DNA from: Ornithinimicrobium sp. CNJ-824
GTDB lineage: Bacteria; Actinomycetota; Actinomycetes; Actinomycetales; Dermatophilaceae
Direction of reading: 5' to 3'
NCBI RefSeq assembly: GCF_001942405.1
Contig: NZ_MKKA01000007.1
Coordinates: 1-64,000 of the forward strand
Length of the DNA: 64,000 bases
Position numbers and translations under genes: made by a program. Position 1 is the stretch's first letter; each line of letters begins with the position of its first letter. The notes under the pieces are model-generated. The model was not told the origin of the DNA. It saw nothing but the letters and a program-made list of their open reading frames with translations, and searched no databases. This document shows, piece by piece, positions 1 through 7,598 of the stretch.

Positions 1-411
1 GCCGGGCTGGTCCTGCCGTCCAGCGCCATTCCCTACTTCGGGCTCATCCCCCTGGCGCTCGGTATCTGGGCGGCGTGGCAGGCATGGCGAGGCGACGGTG
101 ACGACGACGACGAGAAGGTCGAGGGCAAGAAGGTCGGCATCTTGACTGTCGCCGCGGTCACCTTCGCCAACGGCGGAGACAACATCGGCGTCTACGTCCC
201 GGTGTTCCTGAACGTCAGCACGGCAACCGTGGTCATCTTCTGCGTCGTGTTCCTGCTGCTCGTCGGCGTCCTGGTCCTCCTCGCCAGGTATGTCGCCACC
301 CGCAGGCCTATCGCCGAGGTGCTTGAGCGGTGGGAACACGTGCTCTTCCCAATCGTCCTGATCGGCCTCGGCATAGCCATCCTCGTCAGCGGCGGCGCAT
401 TCGGACTCTGA
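1..411 (+). CDS. CadD-family cadmium resistance transporter, C-terminal part (5' end outside window)
   Basis: The reading frame is open from base 1 and ends at TGA 409-411, so the N-terminus is missing. The visible 136 residues hold about four hydrophobic segments, an Asp-rich loop (GDGDDDDEK) and the segment TFANGGDNIGVYVPVF, which I recognise as the conserved helix of CadD-type cadmium resistance membrane proteins. Family knowledge: these are small inner-membrane proteins that export or exclude Cd2+, usually next to an ArsR/CadC-type repressor. No regulator lies downstream, so any partner would be to the left, outside the window. It is probably cargo of the integrated element whose integrase lies at 6260-7384. 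Confidence 0.85.
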   Translation, partial: AGLVLPSSAIPYFGLIPLALGIWAAWQAWRGDGDDDDEKVEGKKVGILTVAAVTFANGGDNIGVYVPVFLNVSTATVVIFCVVFLLLVGVLVLLARYVATRRPIAEVLERWEHVLFPIVLIGLGIAILVSGGAFGL

Positions 412-539
412 CAACCCGCACCCTACGAAGCGCCAAGCGGCGGAGCGTGACGCCTCCCATTCCGAGGCCTGCCCTGCGGGGCACCGCATGCTTCCGACCA
501 GCTATAGCGACTGGTTCGAATAGGGCTGTCCACCAGTAA

Positions 540-547
540 GATATATC
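540..547. promoter_or_regulatory. A/T-rich palindrome GATATATC, possible operator
   Basis: A perfect 8-bp palindrome in an A/T-rich patch (aagatatatcgtt) stands out in otherwise GC-rich DNA. It lies 47 bases upstream of the zinc-finger gene at 595. It could be a repressor site or a -10 region, but nothing shows which protein would use it. Confidence 0.25.
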
Positions 548-594
548 GTTGGCACGATCACAGTCCCTACCGCGGCGGCCCGTCGGAGGCGCTC

Positions 595-1053
595 ATGGAG
601 ACCACGAACAGCGGCGCCCCCAGGGGTGGGGGCGCTCACACCGCTCATCGCAAACCGGGGCAGACGATCCTGTGCGGCTGGTGCGAGACAGAGGTGCCGG
701 TGCCACCTCGGGGACGCGTCCCGAAGTGGTGCTCCAGCTCCTGCCGCCATCGCGCCTGGGAGCAACGCCGTGCGGCTGACGCCGGTCTTGCTGCGGTTGA
801 AGTGGTCGACCGCGTGGTCGAGGTCGTGCGAGTTGAGAGGGTCGTCGAGGAGAGGCGGGTGCAGGTGGCCGTGTCGCGGACGCCTCGGTCCGCCAGGGAG
901 TGGGTCGACGTGTTGAACCGGCTCGAATGGGCGCTCGGAAGCAACCGCATGGACCTCGAGGATCTAGCCGAGATCGAACCGTCTCTGGCCCGGGTGGTCG
1001 CTGCCTACCACGCACGCAACGACAGGCTCCACCGTCGCCAGGGCCGTTGGTAG
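595..1053 (+). CDS. Small zinc-finger protein, function unknown
   Basis: This 152-residue protein has a Cys-x2-Cys (C27, C30) and a Cys-x3-Cys (C46, C50) pair followed by a basic stretch, CSSSCRHRAWEQRR, which looks like a small structural zinc ribbon with a nucleic-acid-binding tail. The C-terminal half (about 70-150) is charged and helical. The start is supported by GGAGG at 585-589, five bases before ATG. Proteins with this cysteine pattern are common as hypothetical genes on actinobacterial mobile elements, from memory. No catalytic motif is seen; a role in element regulation is only a guess. Confidence 0.6.
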   Translation: METTNSGAPRGGGAHTAHRKPGQTILCGWCETEVPVPPRGRVPKWCSSSCRHRAWEQRRAADAGLAAVEVVDRVVEVVRVERVVEERRVQVAVSRTPRSAREWVDVLNRLEWALGSNRMDLEDLAEIEPSLARVVAAYHARNDRLHRRQGRW

Positions 1054-1427
1054 CTTGCCTCCCCCGGCATTGAACCGAGAGAGCATGATGGCTTCCGTTA
1101 GGACTGCCCGGCCACCTCGCGTCGTCCTGGACGTGGCTCGCACTCGCGCGCCGGTCATGGCCTGAGCCGGTTCGCCGCCGACCCGTAGACGGCGACTGCG
1201 TGCCAGCAACTCGCCCGAGACCCACCGCCGCTCTCCCGTGGTGCGAGTGGCTTCGGCAGGGCGTTCCCGAGTAGGCGGCCGTTGCCCGATCGCCCATGGA
1301 AATGTGCGTAGACGGCGCGTTACCGTACCCGGGAACGCTCATCACGTATCCTGAGCCGAGATCGCAGGCAGGAGCAGATGGGGAACTGGATGCACACCGG
1401 CTCCTCGCGCGGCGCCCGGAGCCACTC
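1054..1427. other. Intergenic region, no convincing gene
   Basis: These 374 bases separate the zinc-finger gene from the cassette starting at 1428. A 26-codon ORF begins near 1089 but has no good ribosome site and no recognisable product. The frame of the next gene is open back to 1296, but its best start is 1428. The promoter of the downstream cassette probably lies here; I cannot place it. Confidence 0.4.
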
Positions 1428-2081
1428 ATGAGGACGTATACAGCCGACGAAGAGTGGCCGCGCCATGACAAGAAGCACTGGCGTGACGCGTTTGAGCACG
1501 CCCAGGCCGTGGGATGGTTCCTCGACCACATAGACGCCGCCCACCGGTTCGGCACCCTCAGATGCCCTTACGGCTGTCACAACGTCAAGGTCGACCACAC
1601 AGCCGTCGGCGGTGACATGTTCGCCGCCAGCCTACCCAACAAGATCAGAGCCTGTCAGAAGGCGAACGGGCTCGACCCAACCTCCATAAAGCTCGCCGAA
1701 GCCACCCGGCTGATGGACACCGCAGAGGCCCTCATCGACCGGATCGAAGAGGGCCTGACGAGCGTGTGGAGCAAGCAGTGCGCTACCGAAGAACTCGACC
1801 GGATATGCCTGCAGATCGAGACAGCCGACACCACCCTCCAGGACGAGGTGCTAGCGCGTGCCATCGCCGCGGAGGACTCTGCGACAGAGGTTGAAGACCT
1901 CCAGCAGTGGAGCGATGAAGCTGAGTCTCACGCGGACGAGGCCGAAGGGGTCCTGAAGAAGGTCTCCCGACAGACGGTCACTCGACCGCTTCGAGGTCGT
2001 CTGGACGGCTTGCGGGACCGACTCGCGAACGTCTGCAAGCAGCTTGACGCGCTCGATGGGAACGGAACGACCCCGTTGTGA
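1428..2081 (+). CDS. Hypothetical protein with HicA-like N-terminus and helical C-terminus, first gene of the cassette
   Basis: I chose ATG 1428 because GGAG lies six bases upstream; the open frame extends back to 1296 without a good start. The product is about 217 residues. Residues about 10-75 contain a Trp-rich helix (KHWRDAFEHAQAVGW), a strand, RFGTLRCPYGCHNVKV and a closing NKIRAC. I recall this arrangement from many small actinobacterial proteins; its helix-strand-strand-helix order resembles HicA/dsRBD-type RNA-binding folds. The rest (80-217) is acidic and strongly helical, probably coiled coil. It is followed 49 bases later by a helix-turn-helix gene with a strong ribosome site. A toxin role is inferred from context and fold impression, not shown. 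Confidence 0.5.
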   Translation: MRTYTADEEWPRHDKKHWRDAFEHAQAVGWFLDHIDAAHRFGTLRCPYGCHNVKVDHTAVGGDMFAASLPNKIRACQKANGLDPTSIKLAEATRLMDTAEALIDRIEEGLTSVWSKQCATEELDRICLQIETADTTLQDEVLARAIAAEDSATEVEDLQQWSDEAESHADEAEGVLKKVSRQTVTRPLRGRLDGLRDRLANVCKQLDALDGNGTTPL

Positions 2082-2130
2082 AGTTCCAACACTGTGCCGT
2101 AGTCTCGTCTCCAGGAAGGTAGGAGGGACC

Positions 2131-2826
2131 ATGCTCTACAAGGTCGTGCTCCGGCTCGCAGGCGTGGACCTGCGAGCCCCACAAGATTGGGAAGTGTTTG
2201 GCGAAGGCACCAAAGACGTGCACCTGGAGGCCGACGGCCCCCTCAGCCTCGCGACCCTATACGCGGAGTCCGCGCAGGAGGTGATGGCTCGCGCGGCCGG
2301 CTTCGCTGCGCTCCTAAAGGTGCAGGCCAGCCGAGCCTCCGTGGCCGGCGTCCACGACGAGCTCGCCTCTGTCGCGACGATCGCCAGCCGGGTTGGGCTT
2401 GGGCCGGAAGCCGTGCGTCTGTGGGTGCAGGGAGAGCGTCGCGGAGAAGCCTTCCCGCGGCCAGTACAGATCGTCGGTACTGGGGCCAAGCCGCAGCAGC
2501 TGTTCTCCTGGCGTGAGGTCTTGGACTGGGTGCGGGAGAACGTCGGGTGCGACCCGGAGCAGGGTGTCGCCTACCTGTCCGCGTCCCAACTCGCTGAGCT
2601 GGGTCACCAGGTTCTCGTTACGCCGTCCGCCGATCCACTTGGCGTTGTGGCTACGTGCTACACCTCCTGGTCCGCAGTGATTCACAAGCAGGCACCGATG
2701 CGGCTTCCGGAAGTGTCTTCCTCTATCCACTACAAGAGCCCGTCTCATATCATCAGTGCAACTTTCGGCCGGAACCCCCTGGGGTCGTTCGATTTGAACG
2801 CGAGGGACCGTGAGCGCTCTTCCTGA
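2131..2826 (+). CDS. Helix-turn-helix protein with C-terminal extension, possible antitoxin of the cassette
   Basis: ATG 2131 has a strong AGGAGG at 2121-2126. The 231-residue product has an N-terminal alpha/beta part (1-75), then a HTH (about 80-105; ASVATIASRVGLGPEAVRLW) followed by a GERRGEAFPRP loop and SWREVLDWV, a MerR/AlpA-like pattern. I recall this protein type as the usual partner of genes like the one at 1428. Residues about 163-231 form an extra tail beyond the normal end, with hydrophobic and aromatic residues. In toxin-antitoxin-chaperone systems the antitoxin carries a comparable tail recognised by the SecB-like chaperone; here that is inference. Its last 17 bases overlap the SecB-like gene. 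Confidence 0.55.
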   Translation: MLYKVVLRLAGVDLRAPQDWEVFGEGTKDVHLEADGPLSLATLYAESAQEVMARAAGFAALLKVQASRASVAGVHDELASVATIASRVGLGPEAVRLWVQGERRGEAFPRPVQIVGTGAKPQQLFSWREVLDWVRENVGCDPEQGVAYLSASQLAELGHQVLVTPSADPLGVVATCYTSWSAVIHKQAPMRLPEVSSSIHYKSPSHIISATFGRNPLGSFDLNARDRERSS

Positions 2827-3268
2827 CGGTGCGGACGAACGGTATTTGGCTTTTGTCGCCGGCGTCGAGGTCCAGTGGATCGAGGTCGTCCTTCTCCATG
2901 CGGAGAAGCAAAGCGTGAACGCTTCTAACGACGTCGAGGTGGATATCGGCGGTGGTAACGCTCTCGCCGAGGATCACTTCTTGAGTCGCTTCGAGGCCAA
3001 AGCATCTGTCACCGATGAAGATGGGGATGACGTAGCCCAGCTCCAGGTGGCGCTCATCATCAAGTTCTCATCCGAGACGGCCCCAGAAGAGGATTTGGTC
3101 GAGCGGTTTTCGCGCAGCACCGGCGTGATGATGGCGACCCCGTACCTGCGGGAGAACCTCTCGTCCCTGGCGCGCCGGACGAACGTGGAGGGCGTGCTCC
3201 TGCCCCTAGTGAGGATGCAGGGTGGCGTGGTCCAGGGCGACGGGGAAGCAGCTCCGACGCGGGAGTGA
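2810..3268 (+). CDS. SecB-like chaperone, third gene of the cassette
   Basis: This 152-residue protein has the organisation of SecB: alternating beta strands in the middle (about 57-90), then EEDLVERF (93-100), TPYLREN (110-116) and VLLPLV (129-134). SecB and the mycobacterial chaperone Rv1957 share the motif of a helix ending in Pro-Tyr-x-Arg-Glu followed by a Leu-Pro strand. Actinobacteria generally lack housekeeping SecB, and their SecB-like proteins are typically chaperones of toxin-antitoxin loci. GTG 2810 lies inside the end of the HTH gene, implying translational coupling. The assignment rests on motif recognition alone; an alternative is an unrelated beta-rich element protein. Confidence 0.55.
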   Translation: MSALPDGADERYLAFVAGVEVQWIEVVLLHAEKQSVNASNDVEVDIGGGNALAEDHFLSRFEAKASVTDEDGDDVAQLQVALIIKFSSETAPEEDLVERFSRSTGVMMATPYLRENLSSLARRTNVEGVLLPLVRMQGGVVQGDGEAAPTRE

Positions 3269-3335
3269 TCAATGCCGATGTCCTCGGACGCACCACGCTC
3301 CTCGAGCAAGAATGCTCCGCCGTACTCTTGGCGCC

Positions 3336-3743
3336 ATGAGGTACGACCAGACCTACGACCACGTCCTCGATCTCCAAGAGACCGCCTACCTGTCGGGGAT
3401 GGCGACGCGCGGCGTTCGCGTCTACGCGGGCGGCGACCTGTACGCCAGCGGAGTCATCAGCGATGGAGTTGTCGTCGATGTCGGAGGTCGCGCTAGCCTC
3501 AGCGGCCTTCTCTCAGGCCCATCTGTCGTTCGAGGAGTGCTAGACGTCAGCGGCAAGGTCGATGGACCCATTCGTATCGAGGAGGATGGCATGGTGATCT
3601 TCGCCGTTGGCTGCATGTGGAACGGACGCATTCTCCAGCCGGACGGTCGGTGGGCGACTCCCACCGAACCCGTCACCGTGATGATCGACGACAGCACGCC
3701 GCGCTACCGCATGGATGCTGGCGGTGAACTGACTCTGCTCTGA
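3336..3743 (+). CDS. Bactofilin-like beta-helix protein
   Basis: This 135-residue protein has short repeating units of the type Gly-Asp-Leu-x-x-Ser-Gly-x-Ile (GGDLYASGVISDGVVVDVGG, then ASLSGLL, VLDVSGKVDGPI), which suggest a right-handed beta-helix as in bactofilins/polymer-forming proteins. There is no signal peptide or membrane segment. The ATG at 3336 starts right before MRYDQTYDHV; the frame is open further upstream, but that part overlaps the SecB-like gene and looks non-coding. It lies 67 bases after the cassette. Its role is unknown. Confidence 0.5.
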   Translation: MRYDQTYDHVLDLQETAYLSGMATRGVRVYAGGDLYASGVISDGVVVDVGGRASLSGLLSGPSVVRGVLDVSGKVDGPIRIEEDGMVIFAVGCMWNGRILQPDGRWATPTEPVTVMIDDSTPRYRMDAGGELTLL

Positions 3744-3929
3744 CTGACTTGGTCCTGGTCCACGGGCGGGTGCTCTCCCAAGACCCATGGCAGCCGCTCC
3801 ACCAACTCACGCCCTGCTCCGCGCCTCATTCAGGACACCGCGTCGTGGCTGGCCGCGTACGAAATGGCCTAGTCTTGTCCACGGCGCCAAGCAGGCGGCC
3901 TTGGTAACCACCCCGAGCGAAGTTGAGCA

Positions 3930-6110
3930 ATGAAAAGACTCTCTGTCGACCTCAAAAATTGCCATGGAATCCGCGACTTGAGCGCCTCCTTCAAGTTCAA
4001 GAGTGGCAACTCTGCGGCCGTTTATGCACCGAACGGAACTATGAAGACCTCGTTCGCGCGCACGCTGGCAGATCTCGCAAAGGGCGTCGAGACGAGGGAC
4101 CGCATGTTCCCTGAGCGCACGACCGCCAGGAGTATCGTCGATGAAGACGGCGAAGAACTTCGGGGAGAGGATGTCGTCGTCGTGCTTTCCTACGACGAGG
4201 AGCTTGGGCCGACGGAATCTACGTCGGTTCTGCTGGTGAACCCAGAATTGCGTAAGGAGTACGAGGCGCTCCAGCGTGAACTCATCGAGGCGCGGGACGA
4301 ATTGATCATCGCTCTCAAGGAGCAGTCGCAGACTAGACAAGATATTGTCGCAGTTGTCTCCCGCGTCTTTACTCAGCAGGAAGACAACTTCTTCACCGCA
4401 ATGGTCCGCCTCAGCTATGAGATCGAGGCTCAAGAAGAGACGCCCTTTGCCAGCGTTCCATACGACGTTCTGTTCAACAGCAAGGTGCAGCCGATACTGC
4501 GCCAACAGGCCATCCAGGCTGCGCTGGCTGACTACGTGACTCGATTGAACGAACTGCTGGACGAGTCGGCGTTCTTCAGCAGGGAGTCCTTTAATTTCTA
4601 CAACGCGGCAAATGTGACCAAAAGCCTGGGGGACAACGGTTTCTTTGCAGCACGACACTCCATCTTGCTTCAAGGGCAGGACGAGGATCCTAAAGAAATC
4701 ACGAGCAAGGCCGACCTGGATGCCCTCATTGCGGACGAAAGGAAGCGCATCACCGATGATGAGACGCTGCGTAAGAAACTCGATGCAGTCGAGAAAGCCC
4801 TCAACAAGAACGTCGACACCCGCGCATTCTTCGATTACATCGCCGAGCACGTTGAACTGCTTCCAGAGTTCAGCAATGTGGACTTGTTCGAACAGAACGT
4901 TTGGAAGTCGTACATTAAGGCACACGAGGCCCTGTACGATCGCGTAGTCAACTGTTATAAGGATACAGAGAAACGCAAGAAGGCGATCGAACAACAGGCT
5001 GCAGCGGAGAGTACGCAATGGGAACGGGTTATCGACATCTTCAACGATCGGTTCTTTGTACCCTTCCGGCTAATTGCAACCAACCGCGATCGAGTGGTCC
5101 TCGGGCAGGAGAACTTGCTTAAGCTCGGCTTCGAGTTCGAGGACGGTTCCGAGAGGACTGCCGTGGAGCGTGGAGAACTGCTCGAAATCTTAAGCAACGG
5201 GGAGAAGAAGGCGTTGTACATCCTCAACGTGCTGTTCGAAGTCGAGACCAGGAAGGCGTCGGACCGCGAGACTCTGTTTGTTATCGACGATATCGCCGAC
5301 TCTTTTGACTACAAGAACAAGTACGCCATCATCCAGTATCTGAAGGAGATGTCTGAGCAGCCGAACTTCAGGATGATCCTTCTCACTCACAACTTCGACT
5401 TCTTCCGCACGCTGGAGAGTCGCGGCGTCGTCGGGTATGACCGGTGCTTCATGGCGCAGAAGGGTGAGTCTAAGGTCGTCTTGGGCCAAGCCGCGGGTGT
5501 CAGGAACCCGTTCATTAACGACTTCAAGCGGAATTTCTATGCGGACGGCATGAAGCGGGTTGCCTGCATCCCGTTTATCCGCAACATCCTGGAGTACACG
5601 AAGGGCGAGAGCGACCCACACTACTTGAAACTCACTTCGCTTCTTCATTGGAAGAGCGACACGTCGTCGATCACACAGGGTGACTTGGACATAATTTTCG
5701 CGGAAACTTTTGGCCTTGTGGGCTCGTGGCCCCAGTCCTCGGAGCCGGTTATTGATCTTATAGTCGGCGAGGCAAACAGGGCAGTTACTGCGGACGAAGG
5801 GGCGAACTTTGAGAACAAGATCGTCTTGTCCATCGCCATCCGCTTGCTGTCCGAGAGCCACATGGTCATGGAGCTGGCGGACCCGTCCTTCACCGATAAC
5901 ATCCAAGCCAACCAATCTCAGGCCCTCTTCAAGGCGTACAAGAACCGCGGCCAAGGTACTGCCGAGTCCCGCGACCTGCTTGGAGGCGTGGTGCTCATGA
6001 CGCCCGAGAACATCCATGTGAACTCGTTCATGTATGAGCCCATTATCGATATGTCGGACGCCCACTTGAGAAGGCTCTACACCGATGTGTTGCAACTGAC
6101 CGGACCGTAA
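3930..6110 (+). CDS. AAA/ABC-type ATPase of the RloC/PrrC-like (AAA_13) group, probable anti-phage protein
   Basis: The 726-residue product starts with an SMC/ABC-like nucleotide-binding part. Its Walker A is atypical: YAPNGTMKTS (32-41), with Met where the Gly before Lys39 is expected. A charged, mostly helical middle (about 100-400) is followed by the ABC-like signature SNGEKKAL (422-429), Walker B FVIDDIAD (Asp453, Asp454) and an H-loop LLTHNFDFF (His487). The C-terminal 240 residues contain IAIRLLSESH (Arg638, His644), matching the loose R-x5-H spacing of HEPN nucleases, and NSFMYEPIIDMS, which I recall from related AAA proteins. Codon use is richer in A/T than its neighbours, indicating recent transfer. 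PrrC/RloC relatives cut tRNA after phage attack; nuclease activity here is inference. Confidence 0.7.
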   Translation: MKRLSVDLKNCHGIRDLSASFKFKSGNSAAVYAPNGTMKTSFARTLADLAKGVETRDRMFPERTTARSIVDEDGEELRGEDVVVVLSYDEELGPTESTSVLLVNPELRKEYEALQRELIEARDELIIALKEQSQTRQDIVAVVSRVFTQQEDNFFTAMVRLSYEIEAQEETPFASVPYDVLFNSKVQPILRQQAIQAALADYVTRLNELLDESAFFSRESFNFYNAANVTKSLGDNGFFAARHSILLQGQDEDPKEITSKADLDALIADERKRITDDETLRKKLDAVEKALNKNVDTRAFFDYIAEHVELLPEFSNVDLFEQNVWKSYIKAHEALYDRVVNCYKDTEKRKKAIEQQAAAESTQWERVIDIFNDRFFVPFRLIATNRDRVVLGQENLLKLGFEFEDGSERTAVERGELLEILSNGEKKALYILNVLFEVETRKASDRETLFVIDDIADSFDYKNKYAIIQYLKEMSEQPNFRMILLTHNFDFFRTLESRGVVGYDRCFMAQKGESKVVLGQAAGVRNPFINDFKRNFYADGMKRVACIPFIRNILEYTKGESDPHYLKLTSLLHWKSDTSSITQGDLDIIFAETFGLVGSWPQSSEPVIDLIVGEANRAVTADEGANFENKIVLSIAIRLLSESHMVMELADPSFTDNIQANQSQALFKAYKNRGQGTAESRDLLGGVVLMTPENIHVNSFMYEPIIDMSDAHLRRLYTDVLQLTGP

Positions 6111-6197
6111 CGGCACGCCCCCTCGCAGCGAGTTCGATGCGTTCTTGAGGCTCGCCCTCGGGAGAAGCTTCTGCGACACACGCGATCCGTACAACCG

Positions 6198-6220
6198 GAC
6201 ATGGGCGTAAGCGCCATGTC
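6198..6220. terminator. Hairpin between convergent genes, possible terminator
   Basis: Arms GACATGG and CCATGTC pair perfectly around a short GCGTAAGCG centre. It lies between the end of the AAA ATPase gene (6110) and the end of the integrase gene (6260). A T-run (gtgtttttt) lies nearby at about 6252-6260. It could stop transcription from the ATPase side. Confidence 0.4.
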
Positions 6221-6259
6221 ACGCCCCGCCCTGCTCGCCACCTTGCCAGCGGTGTTTTT

Positions 6260-7384
6260 TCACTCATCTTTTGGACGGGCGAGGTCGGAGAGTCTCGCGG
6301 CGATCTCCGCGTCTCGGCCCTGAGCGGCGTGCTGGTAGCGCAGCGCGGCGGCGACGGTCGAGTGGCCGAGCCGCGCCTGTAGTTCGGCGAGCGTGGCGCC
6401 GGTCATGGCGGCCATGGTCGCGCCCGTGTGCCGCAGGTCGTGGATCCTGAGGTCCTCGCGCCCGGCGGCGTCTCGGGCCTTGCGCCATGCCGTGCGCAGC
6501 ACAGTCGGCTGCATGTGGCGCTCGTGGTCGCGCATGGACGGGAACAGCAGTGCATCCGCTCCCGGGCGCACGTGCTTCTCCAGGTGCCGCTCCAGGGCGG
6601 GGACGATGTGCGGCGGCACGCTCACCTCACGGGTGCCGGCAGCCGATTTCGGGGTGCCGACGATCGGCTGGCCTCGGACCCATGAGACGGCCCGGGTCAC
6701 TTTGACGACGCCGCGGGTCAGGTCGAGGTCGCACCTGCGAAGCTCGAGGACCTCCCCCACCCGCAGCGCGCACCAGGCGCAGAGCAAGACGAGGGCGCCG
6801 AGCTGGTCCGGCATCTCCTTCACGAGCACGTCCAGCTCAGTGAGCGTCGCCGGACGGATCTCCTTCTTGGTCGGCGGGTTCGAGGCGGCGCGGACGCGGC
6901 ACGGGTTGCTGGCGAGGAGCTCGTCGGTGACCGCGGTGGTGAGGATGGCTCTCAGGAGTGCGTAGGCGCGGGCGTTGACCGTCGGGTGGTCCGGCGACAG
7001 GCCTGCCCACCACCGGCGTACGAGGGCCGGCGTGAGGTCCGAGACGAGCAGCTCGCCGAACTCCGGCTCGAGGTAGCGCCGCAGCAGGTGCTCGTAGCCT
7101 TCGCGGGTCCGCGGCTTGAGGGACCGGTCGGCGAGCCACTGACGAGCAAACTCGGCGAACGTCGGTGGTGCCAGGCGCTCGGCCAACTCCGCCCGCCGCC
7201 TCGGGGCCAACCAGTCGTCGCGGCTCGCCAGCGCGCGCTCGTGGACCAGCCACGCTTCAGCGTCAGCCTTCGAAGCGAAGGTGTGCGGAGCGGTGTGCCG
7301 CCCCAGATCCGGACCGGTGTAGCTGGCCTGCCACCGCTTCGACGGCAGCCGCCGCAGTGCCCCGAAGCCTCGTCTCGTTGCCAT
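6260..7384 (-). CDS. int: Tyrosine-type site-specific integrase
   Basis: The 374-residue product catalyses integration and excision of the element at the adjacent tRNA gene. An N-terminal AP2-like arm-binding part (about 1-50, RRLPSKRWQASY) is followed by a core-binding SAM-like domain (about 70-160) and a C-terminal catalytic domain with ALRVGE (catalytic Arg), IHDLRHTGAT (His-x2-Arg), LGHS and the closing Tyr in LRYQHA. ATG at 7384 is preferred over upstream in-frame starts because GGGGAG lies just upstream. The gene begins 141 bases from the 3' end of tRNA-Thr, the standard layout for a tRNA-targeted integrative element, so the island extends leftward. Confidence 0.95.
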   Translation of the reverse strand: MATRRGFGALRRLPSKRWQASYTGPDLGRHTAPHTFASKADAEAWLVHERALASRDDWLAPRRRAELAERLAPPTFAEFARQWLADRSLKPRTREGYEHLLRRYLEPEFGELLVSDLTPALVRRWWAGLSPDHPTVNARAYALLRAILTTAVTDELLASNPCRVRAASNPPTKKEIRPATLTELDVLVKEMPDQLGALVLLCAWCALRVGEVLELRRCDLDLTRGVVKVTRAVSWVRGQPIVGTPKSAAGTREVSVPPHIVPALERHLEKHVRPGADALLFPSMRDHERHMQPTVLRTAWRKARDAAGREDLRIHDLRHTGATMAAMTGATLAELQARLGHSTVAAALRYQHAAQGRDAEIAARLSDLARPKDE

Positions 7385-7399
7385 CCCGCTCCCCATTTC

Positions 7400-7418
7400 G
7401 TGCAACATACGTGCAACA
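7400..7418. repeat. Tandem CGTGCAACA repeats, possible integrase arm sites
   Basis: CGTGCAACA occurs at 7400-7408 and 7410-7418, ten bases apart, about one helical turn. They lie between the integrase start and the tRNA. Direct repeats in this place often are arm-type binding sites of tyrosine integrases. They may also overlap the int promoter. Confidence 0.4.
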
Positions 7419-7488
7419 AGGGTGCCACTTCGTGCCCACTTCTGACAACGTGTGACCACGTCAACTCAGGGCCTATTTACCGCGTTTG

Positions 7489-7520: not shown

Positions 7521-7525
7521 CTAAG

Positions 7526-7598
7526 AGCTGGCGAAGGGACTCGAACCCTCAACCACCTGTTTACAAGACAGGTGCGCTACCAATTGCGCCACGCCAGC
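7526..7598 (-). tRNA. tRNA-Thr (anticodon TGT)
   Basis: Read on the minus strand, a 73-base cloverleaf forms: acceptor GCTGGCG/CGCCAGC, D-arm GCGC-AATTGGTA-GCGC, anticodon arm CCTGT-CTTGTAA-ACAGG with anticodon TGT (reads ACA), and T-arm GAGGG-TTCGAGT-CCCTT. CCA is not encoded. Its 3' end faces the integrase gene and is the presumed attachment site; the integrated element restores the tRNA 3' end. Confidence 0.95.

Follow-up and report, generated by a model that had tools for sequence, protein, structure and literature searches.

The PDC-S46 gene of an integrated Ornithinimicrobium element: an SMC/Rad50-class ABC ATPase with a helical C-terminal domain and a possible role as an anti-phage RNase

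What is the function of the gene at positions 3930-6110, forward strand, of a 64,000-nucleotide stretch of DNA from Ornithinimicrobium sp. CNJ-824 (the whole of which is called the window here)? In a preliminary description, made from the sequence, it had been read as an A/T-rich gene for an AAA ATPase on an integrated element, with an R-x5-H motif at R638 and H644 as in HEPN nucleases and with phage defence as the likely setting. The ORF is present and encodes 726 amino acids. The family to which this protein belongs, the fold and probable active site of its C-terminal domain and the element that carries it were investigated. Published work is cited by PMC number.

Family membership, ATPase head and spread

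Based on comparison with PADLOC-DB, the window protein is a full-length member of family PDC-S46 (PDLC05023; E 1.8e-272, 904 bits). The match covers residues 1-723 and profile positions 1-718 of 719, and no difference from the family was found; the second-best PADLOC family, PDC-S06, lies far below at 3e-12. PDC is read as "phage defence candidate" after PMC11514479, so that PDC-S46 is already on a list of defence candidates. In the literature searched, the name PDC-S46 was not found in the main texts of papers, nor was a mechanism for the family. In Pfam the protein matched SMC_N below threshold, with two further rows at the level of chance, and NCBIfam and Pfam together gave only SMC_N and RecF matches, all sub-threshold. 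The features of the gene are as follows.

3930..6110, + strand: PDC-S46 gene, ABC ATPase head and helical C-terminal domain, 726 aa (ORF and PADLOC PDLC05023)
4026..4052, + strand: Walker A, APNGTMKTS, residues 33-41, with Met38 where RloC-like proteins carry Gly (relatives alignment)
5190..5204, + strand: ABC signature LSNGE, residues 421-425 (S422, G424 and E425 in 90/90 relatives)
5274..5291, + strand: Walker B LFVIDD, residues 449-454 (D453 and D454 in 90/90 relatives)
5388..5390, + strand: H-loop His487 (90/90 relatives)
5475..6107, + strand: helical C-terminal domain, residues 516-726 (modelled alone)
5580..5594, + strand: first invariant R-x3-E, R551 and E555 (89/89 relatives each; common to PDLC04889)
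5646..5648, + strand: H573 (88/89 relatives)
5748..6107, + strand: part with a likely HEPN-like fold, residues 607-726 (VIA-align Z 4.5-6.0; Foldseek non-significant)
5841..5855, + strand: second invariant R-x3-E, R638 and E642, proposed active site (88/88 relatives each)
5859..5861, + strand: H644, non-conserved (74 relatives)
6015..6017, + strand: H696 in TPENIHxNSFMYEP, ahead of the last helices, proposed active site (87/88 relatives)

Residues were counted in relatives found by a scan in which each species was represented by a single genome. This gave 383 encoding stretches, of which the best 80 were kept; these 80 come from Actinomycetota, Pseudomonadota, Nitrospirota, Cyanobacteriota, Bacteroidota, Bacillota and others. 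Four loci were omitted (L020 and L061, whose frames are broken, and L012 and L069, whose extended ends overran the stop although their frames look intact), leaving 76 relatives for the counts, including the short or over-long L055, L058, L065, L066 and L068. The latter five were left out of the tree and of the sister-family comparison alignment. The structure alignments held 71 of the 76 relatives and the window protein, and a larger alignment, with 14 viral, phage and plasmid rows added, held 90 relatives (91 rows with the window protein).

The preliminary description was right about an ATPase with intact signature, Walker B and H-loop, but its class is corrected here to ABC, with a head of SMC/Rad50 type. 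In the full-length model, built from a 72-row alignment (mean pLDDT 86.9, pTM 0.65), the head reached a best Z of 16.2 against SMC/Rad50 heads (248 residues, rmsd 3.9) and a Z of 15.2 against retron PtuA; by this fold and the invariant ABC motifs it is an ABC ATPase of the SMC/Rad50 class. A search of PDB sequences with the protein returned two rows, which are weak and lie on the ATPase head. Walker A does depart from the canonical form, but it is not odd for the family, in which YAPNGxMK[TS]S is the standard form (M38 in 88/89 relatives, A33 in 87/89, K39 and S41 in 89/89). Gly occupies the M38 position in 17/17 comparison rows (13 AAA_13-type and 4 from a sister family). It is a matter of speculation that the fixed Met confers unusual handling of the nucleotide.

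The gene is A/T-rich for its surroundings, as had been noticed: its GC content per kb is 0.547-0.553, that of the remaining kb windows in positions 1-7000 is 0.627-0.683, and the per-kb values across 8001-64000 (0.683-0.781) are also above it. The family is found in many phyla, and its occurrence is patchy. Among 396 genomes of the host phylum eight gave a match, which was of full length only in the window's own genome; the other seven were partial, inside profile positions 295-568. Among 72,556 plasmid records 27 carry PDC-S46, with at least 80% of the query covered in 25; the family was also found in one of 50,697 phage records and in nine viral contigs. A DNA-level search of E. coli genomes gave no relative. 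Two Rhizobium plasmid copies (L143:6001-8163 and L144:5001-7178) are annotated as "phage infection protein".

The family tree groups by phylum, with 16 label changes where the minimum possible is 13, and the Actinomycetota members fall on one side of a branch. Transfer within a phylum is clear from the sequences, because 4,666 bp that include the PDC-S46 gene are 99.66% identical in Kocuria carniphila (L010) and Ornithinimicrobium sp. INDO-MA30-4 (L011), and outside this segment the two 18-kb loci have no match (E 1e-20). Two further ORFs in the 4.7 kb common to these loci had no Pfam match.

In both loci (L010:7024-11691 and L011:7026-14896) the gene is flanked by copies of a 24-bp repeat, three in L010 and four in L011, on a single strand, where none is expected by chance. 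The repeat translates to VEFRFNV-stop, which we take to resemble the 3' end of ychF. The repeat-bounded region looks, from its sequence, like a row of cassettes.

The C-terminal domain and its invariant residues

Residues 516-726, modelled alone, are entirely helical (pLDDT 91.2, pTM 0.90). The least certain residues are 695-699, which include H696 (pLDDT <50). Structure prediction around residues 600-700 had been suggested as a check of the HEPN idea. The best matches were HEPN structures, yet at Z of at most 6.0 and Foldseek E values of 0.8 or more. In Foldseek against the PDB no row was significant (best E 0.8); nine of the 50 matches listed have a probability of at least 0.25, and all nine belong to HEPN structures, of two different proteins (eight chains of MntA-HepT complexes, assigned to HepT from their length, and a single Thermus protein). 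In VIA-align the 11 rows at Z 4.5-6.0 all contain HEPN domains (MntA-HepT with four entries, Roquin with five and Thermus with two), and the caution level of this tool for helical bundles is about Z 13. A family missing from the Foldseek or VIA-align lists is not thereby excluded. The HepT and Thermus chains align over nearly their whole length, to residues 575-607 through 726 of the protein; the Thermus structures are presumably HEPN proteins. Searches of BFVD with the C-terminal model gave no significant row, and those of PDB sequences with the C-terminal profile gave E 0.34 or worse. Roquin carries a HEPN domain (4TXA and 4Z30; PMC4614863), and HepT is a HEPN RNase with the motif RX4HXY, in which Y104 is the Tyr (PMC7641770). 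The His of HepT, two residues before Y104, lies about 29 residues from the chain end, and H696 lies 30 residues before the C-terminus. Because the scores fall under the safe level of the tool for helical bundles, the HEPN-like fold of residues 607-726 is rated as likely and no higher.

The HEPN idea thus survives in part, as a helical domain with weak HEPN best matches and an invariant R638, while H644 is lost as the partner of this residue. R638 and E642 were found in 74/74 relatives of the first set and in 88/88 of the larger alignment, and H696 in 87/88, which makes the three roughly as invariant as the Lys of the P-loop. K630 and Q662 are likewise conserved in 88/88. The distance from E642 to H696 is 53 residues in 77 of the 88 rows, 52 in five, 49 in one, 55 in four and 254 in one. 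An Arg at -5 to -7 of H696 occurs in 1/88 rows only.

A second cluster, R551/E555/H573, is conserved to the same degree and is common to the sister family PDLC04889 (PDC-S06 subfamily; rows L083, L086, L128, L129 and L165-L167). By hhalign (probability 93%, E 3.3e-07) the two families match over columns 418-576; the aligned region spans the C-lobe of the head together with the R551-E555-H573 module. When the PDC-S46 C-terminal profile was compared with four PDLC04889 rows, the short R551-H573 stretch alone was recovered (probability 6%, E 0.006). In the seven sister-family rows the R-x3-E is present in 7/7, and at the place of H573 there are four His and three Lys. The His of the motif NE[ST][YF]H, which was placed opposite H696 by eye, is present in 7/7.

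These data bear on a reading in which the protein serves in defence and its helical domain lacks RNase activity of the kind proposed below: the domain might bind RNA, DNA or a partner, or R551/E555/H573 might be catalytic, for example in cleavage of DNA. The invariance of the first cluster and the hhalign match, which covers that cluster and not R638-H696, speak for it, as does the report that in some families HEPN domains lacking the motif probably bind RNA without catalysis (PMC3710099). It is opposed by the three Lys at the H573 place, by the seven His opposite H696 and by the near-complete invariance of R638, E642 and H696, and is considered unlikely. R638/E642/H696 is favoured over R551/E555/H573 as the candidate active site; a composite site made of the two R-x3-E motifs and the two His is a bold alternative.

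The element and its cargo slot

The genetic setting was analyzed by blastn, Pfam and PADLOC comparisons, in which neighbouring ORFs were called from length, frame and codon-position GC only. The features of the element in the window are:

1..1047, no strand assigned: element core, common in full or in part to four same-genus elements (blastn 79-94% to L157, L160, L161 and L163)
1182-6203, no strand assigned: variable cargo slot between the core and the integrase end (blastn comparison)
6260..7459, - strand: tyrosine integrase of the element (Pfam Phage_integrase E 1.2e-18)
7525..7598, - strand: tRNA-Thr (TGT), integration site (repeated attachment sequence 7524-7570)

The PDC-S46 gene ends 0.15 kb from the tyrosine integrase ORF, which in turn adjoins the tRNA-Thr gene, and the claim of an integrated element therefore holds. 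An identical copy of the 47-bp repeat at 7524-7570 is located at G000:C1:93653-93699. After this copy come about 110 bp resembling the distal ends of four elements of the same genus, and beyond them GC-rich genes that include several for the synthesis of cobalamin; the contigs are not joined. In the four same-genus genomes (G401, G403, G405 and G397) the same core is present: their elements match portions of window 1-1181, as well as the integrase end, at 79-94% identity. In G401 the initial 40 bp of the repeat occur twice in the same orientation, with about 40 kb between the copies. Window 1182-6203 had no blastn match in the stretches from these four genomes (E 1e-8, >60 bp). The tRNA-Thr(TGT) gene is an integration hotspot in the genus, with a common core and exchanged cargo in four other genomes. 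On the core near the contig end, window 142-411 codes for the last part of a transporter of cadmium-resistance type (Pfam Cad, positions 100-186 of 192). The four ORFs between the core and the PDC-S46 gene (1296-2081, 2128-2826, 2810-3268 and 3222-3743) gave no Pfam match.

In the slot of G403 (L160) an ApeA-like protein was identified (L160:9094-10086; Pfam ApeA_NTD1 E 2.9e-14, HEPN_Apea 23.8 bits with a cut-off of 24.4, no PADLOC model at E 1e-4). The slot of G405 (L161) encodes RmrT/RmrA and a GajB-like helicase and that of G397 (L163) a TIR/SpbK-like protein, while in G401 the two ORFs scanned of six gave one TauD-like piece. Defence-type genes are thus present in the slots of three of the four related elements, among ORFs which were picked by eye, some because they looked defence-like, so that the comparison is biased towards defence; 10 of 30 ORFs in five stretches were scanned (G401 2/6, G403 1/3, G405 4/10 and G397 3/11). 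With this bias the cargo slot is the best contextual support for defence, and the defence-type setting proposed earlier is borne out as an exchanged slot of this kind.

No constant partner gene was found among 139 ORFs scanned, from L001-L078, out of 156 nearest ORFs selected. The commonest Pfam families among the 139, as raw counts, were N6_N4_Mtase (4), DUF2130 (3), N6_Mtase (3), Metallophos (3) and ResIII (3). Some relatives adjoin restriction-modification genes; the neighbours vary, and from these raw counts no enrichment is claimed.

A role outside defence, as an SMC/RecF-like protein that aids maintenance or repair of the DNA of the element or of its host, would suit the class of the head, the sub-threshold SMC_N and RecF matches and the occurrence of the family on plasmids and other elements (the 27 of 72,556 records given above). 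It is distinctly unlikely: PADLOC counts PDC-S46 as a defence candidate, the gene lies in the exchanged slot and not in the common core, defence-type genes occupy that slot in three of four other elements, and the family is missing from almost every genome sampled in the phylum. Defence is preferred because the family is a PADLOC candidate, its spread is patchy and the gene is located in an exchanged cargo slot.

Proposed mechanism and comparison with known systems

Given its family, the order of its domains, the class of its head, the invariant residues, a weak HEPN-like fold match and the mobile defence-cargo setting, the gene is proposed, with a probability of about one half, to form by itself an anti-phage system of the ABC-HEPN type, that is, an ABC-gated RNase which causes abortive infection. 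The SMC/Rad50-like heads would bind nucleotide and, probably, some mark of infection, and a change of shape would then free the C-terminal HEPN-like domains to cleave RNA. Cleavage would take place at a non-canonical site built on R638, E642 and H696, with the R551/E555/H573 cluster possibly helping in substrate binding or in coupling of the head and tail domains. Cleavage of RNA would arrest translation, and the infected cell would therefore abort phage production. Counting against the RNase are the non-significant fold matches, the pTM of 0.65 for the full model, the uncertain H696 loop, the lack of a conserved R-x4-6-H, the failure of the C-terminal profile to align with RloC and an E642-H696 distance mostly one residue past the RloC range, along with the equal invariance of R551/E555/H573, which is also the set that hhalign recovers in PDLC04889.

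The pair proposed in the preliminary description, R638 and H644, is in place with R-x5-H spacing inside the helical domain. Poor conservation of these residues had been named beforehand as evidence against the pair, and the outcome differs for the two: R638 is invariant, but H644 is variable, with F in 40, Y in 25, H in 8 and L in 1 of 74 relatives, and with H in 0/22 members of <45% identity. No R-x4-6-H is conserved at 80% in the 91 rows, nor is any [KR]-x4-6-H at the levels tested. The window protein holds two R-x4-6-H motifs, where 2000 composition-preserving shuffles average 1.9 and 58% have at least two; when residues 516-726 were shuffled alone, 52% had at least one. By itself, then, the R-x5-H does not exceed chance; the preliminary description had cautioned that the motif is short and may arise in this way. 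A canonical HEPN nuclease using R638 and H644 is highly improbable on the conservation of H644 and the chance-level motif, by which the two are ruled out as a catalytic pair, and this obvious pair to mutate would be the wrong choice.

A bolder form of the preferred ABC-gated RNase reading would place PDC-S46 in a separate class, with a P-loop in which Met replaces the last Gly, no zinc hook, an enlarged C-terminal domain, a composite R551/E555/H573 plus R638/E642/H696 site and a HEPN scaffold devoid of R-x4-6-H. This is put forward tentatively and is somewhat doubtful. If true, the P-loop would answer a nucleotide signal other than that of RloC, and the RNA target would be new. The six invariant residues and the deviant P-loop give a directly testable hypothesis. 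Should the protein be an RNase, it would give the ABC-HEPN anti-phage effectors a branch that is free of the hook and provide a case of a HEPN-like site that lacks R-x4-6-H.

Among known systems, the anticodon nuclease RloC (PADLOC PDC-S06 models, Pfam AAA_13) has a triad spaced R-x3-E-x36-52-H, and Ala at any one of the three residues abolishes activity (PMC2610378). PDC-S46 is like RloC in its ABC head, LSxGE signature and putative C-terminal effector domain. Its invariant R-x3-E followed by a later His (R638-x3-E642-x53-H696) comes near the RloC spacing, although in most rows the E642-H696 distance is one residue past the published range. It is unlike RloC in the P-loop, with Met in place of the Gly of the RloC-like comparison rows, and in the zinc hook CxxC, found in 0/91 PDC-S46 rows and 17/17 comparison rows. 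AAA_13 scored 26.9 bits on the window gene, on the head only, and 34.1 bits on the relative L001, the cut-off being 36; it was not listed by hmmscan of the window protein. Membership of RloC is ruled out by the missing hook and the sub-cut-off AAA_13 score. The PDC-S46 C-terminal profile gave a probability of 0.2% and no alignment with nine RloC C-termini, and the likeness of R638/E642/H696 to the RloC triad is claimed as a resemblance of sequence only. An RloC-like protein had no match among PDB sequences, and two such proteins had no relative among the viral contigs.

PrrC also joins an ABC head to a C-terminal Arg-Glu-His nuclease (R320, E324, H356; PMC2610378), a role which in PDC-S46 is predicted, and at 341-416 aa (same source) it is about half the size. 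The PADLOC PrrC model was not among the 13 families matching the window protein at E <=10, and none of the seven ORFs of window 1-7459 had a restriction-modification Pfam match, whereas PrrC is encoded inside a type I restriction-modification operon. IbfA of IncI1 plasmids was ruled out as a relative, being an ATPase-TOPRIM protein homologous to HEC-04 (PMC12111858).

The sister family PDLC04889, besides the aligned head C-lobe and R551-E555-H573 module, differs in having a zinc hook and a canonical P-loop (4/4 rows tested). It is a very common plasmid gene which looks little studied: relatives of, for example, L083:43-2343 occur in 815 of 72,556 plasmid records, 607 of them conjugative and 478 from Escherichia, and in no phage record at E 1e-40. 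The best, though weak, structural neighbours of residues 607-726 are HepT and other HEPN RNases, and HepT has RX4HXY (PMC7641770) where PDC-S46 is without a conserved R-x4-6-H. The fold of the ABC head is common to the Septu-like ATPase of retrons, PtuA, and PtuA/PtuB complexes are named in the titles of structures which matched the head model. PtuA works with a separate nuclease, PtuB, whereas in PDC-S46 the putative effector is fused to the ATPase.
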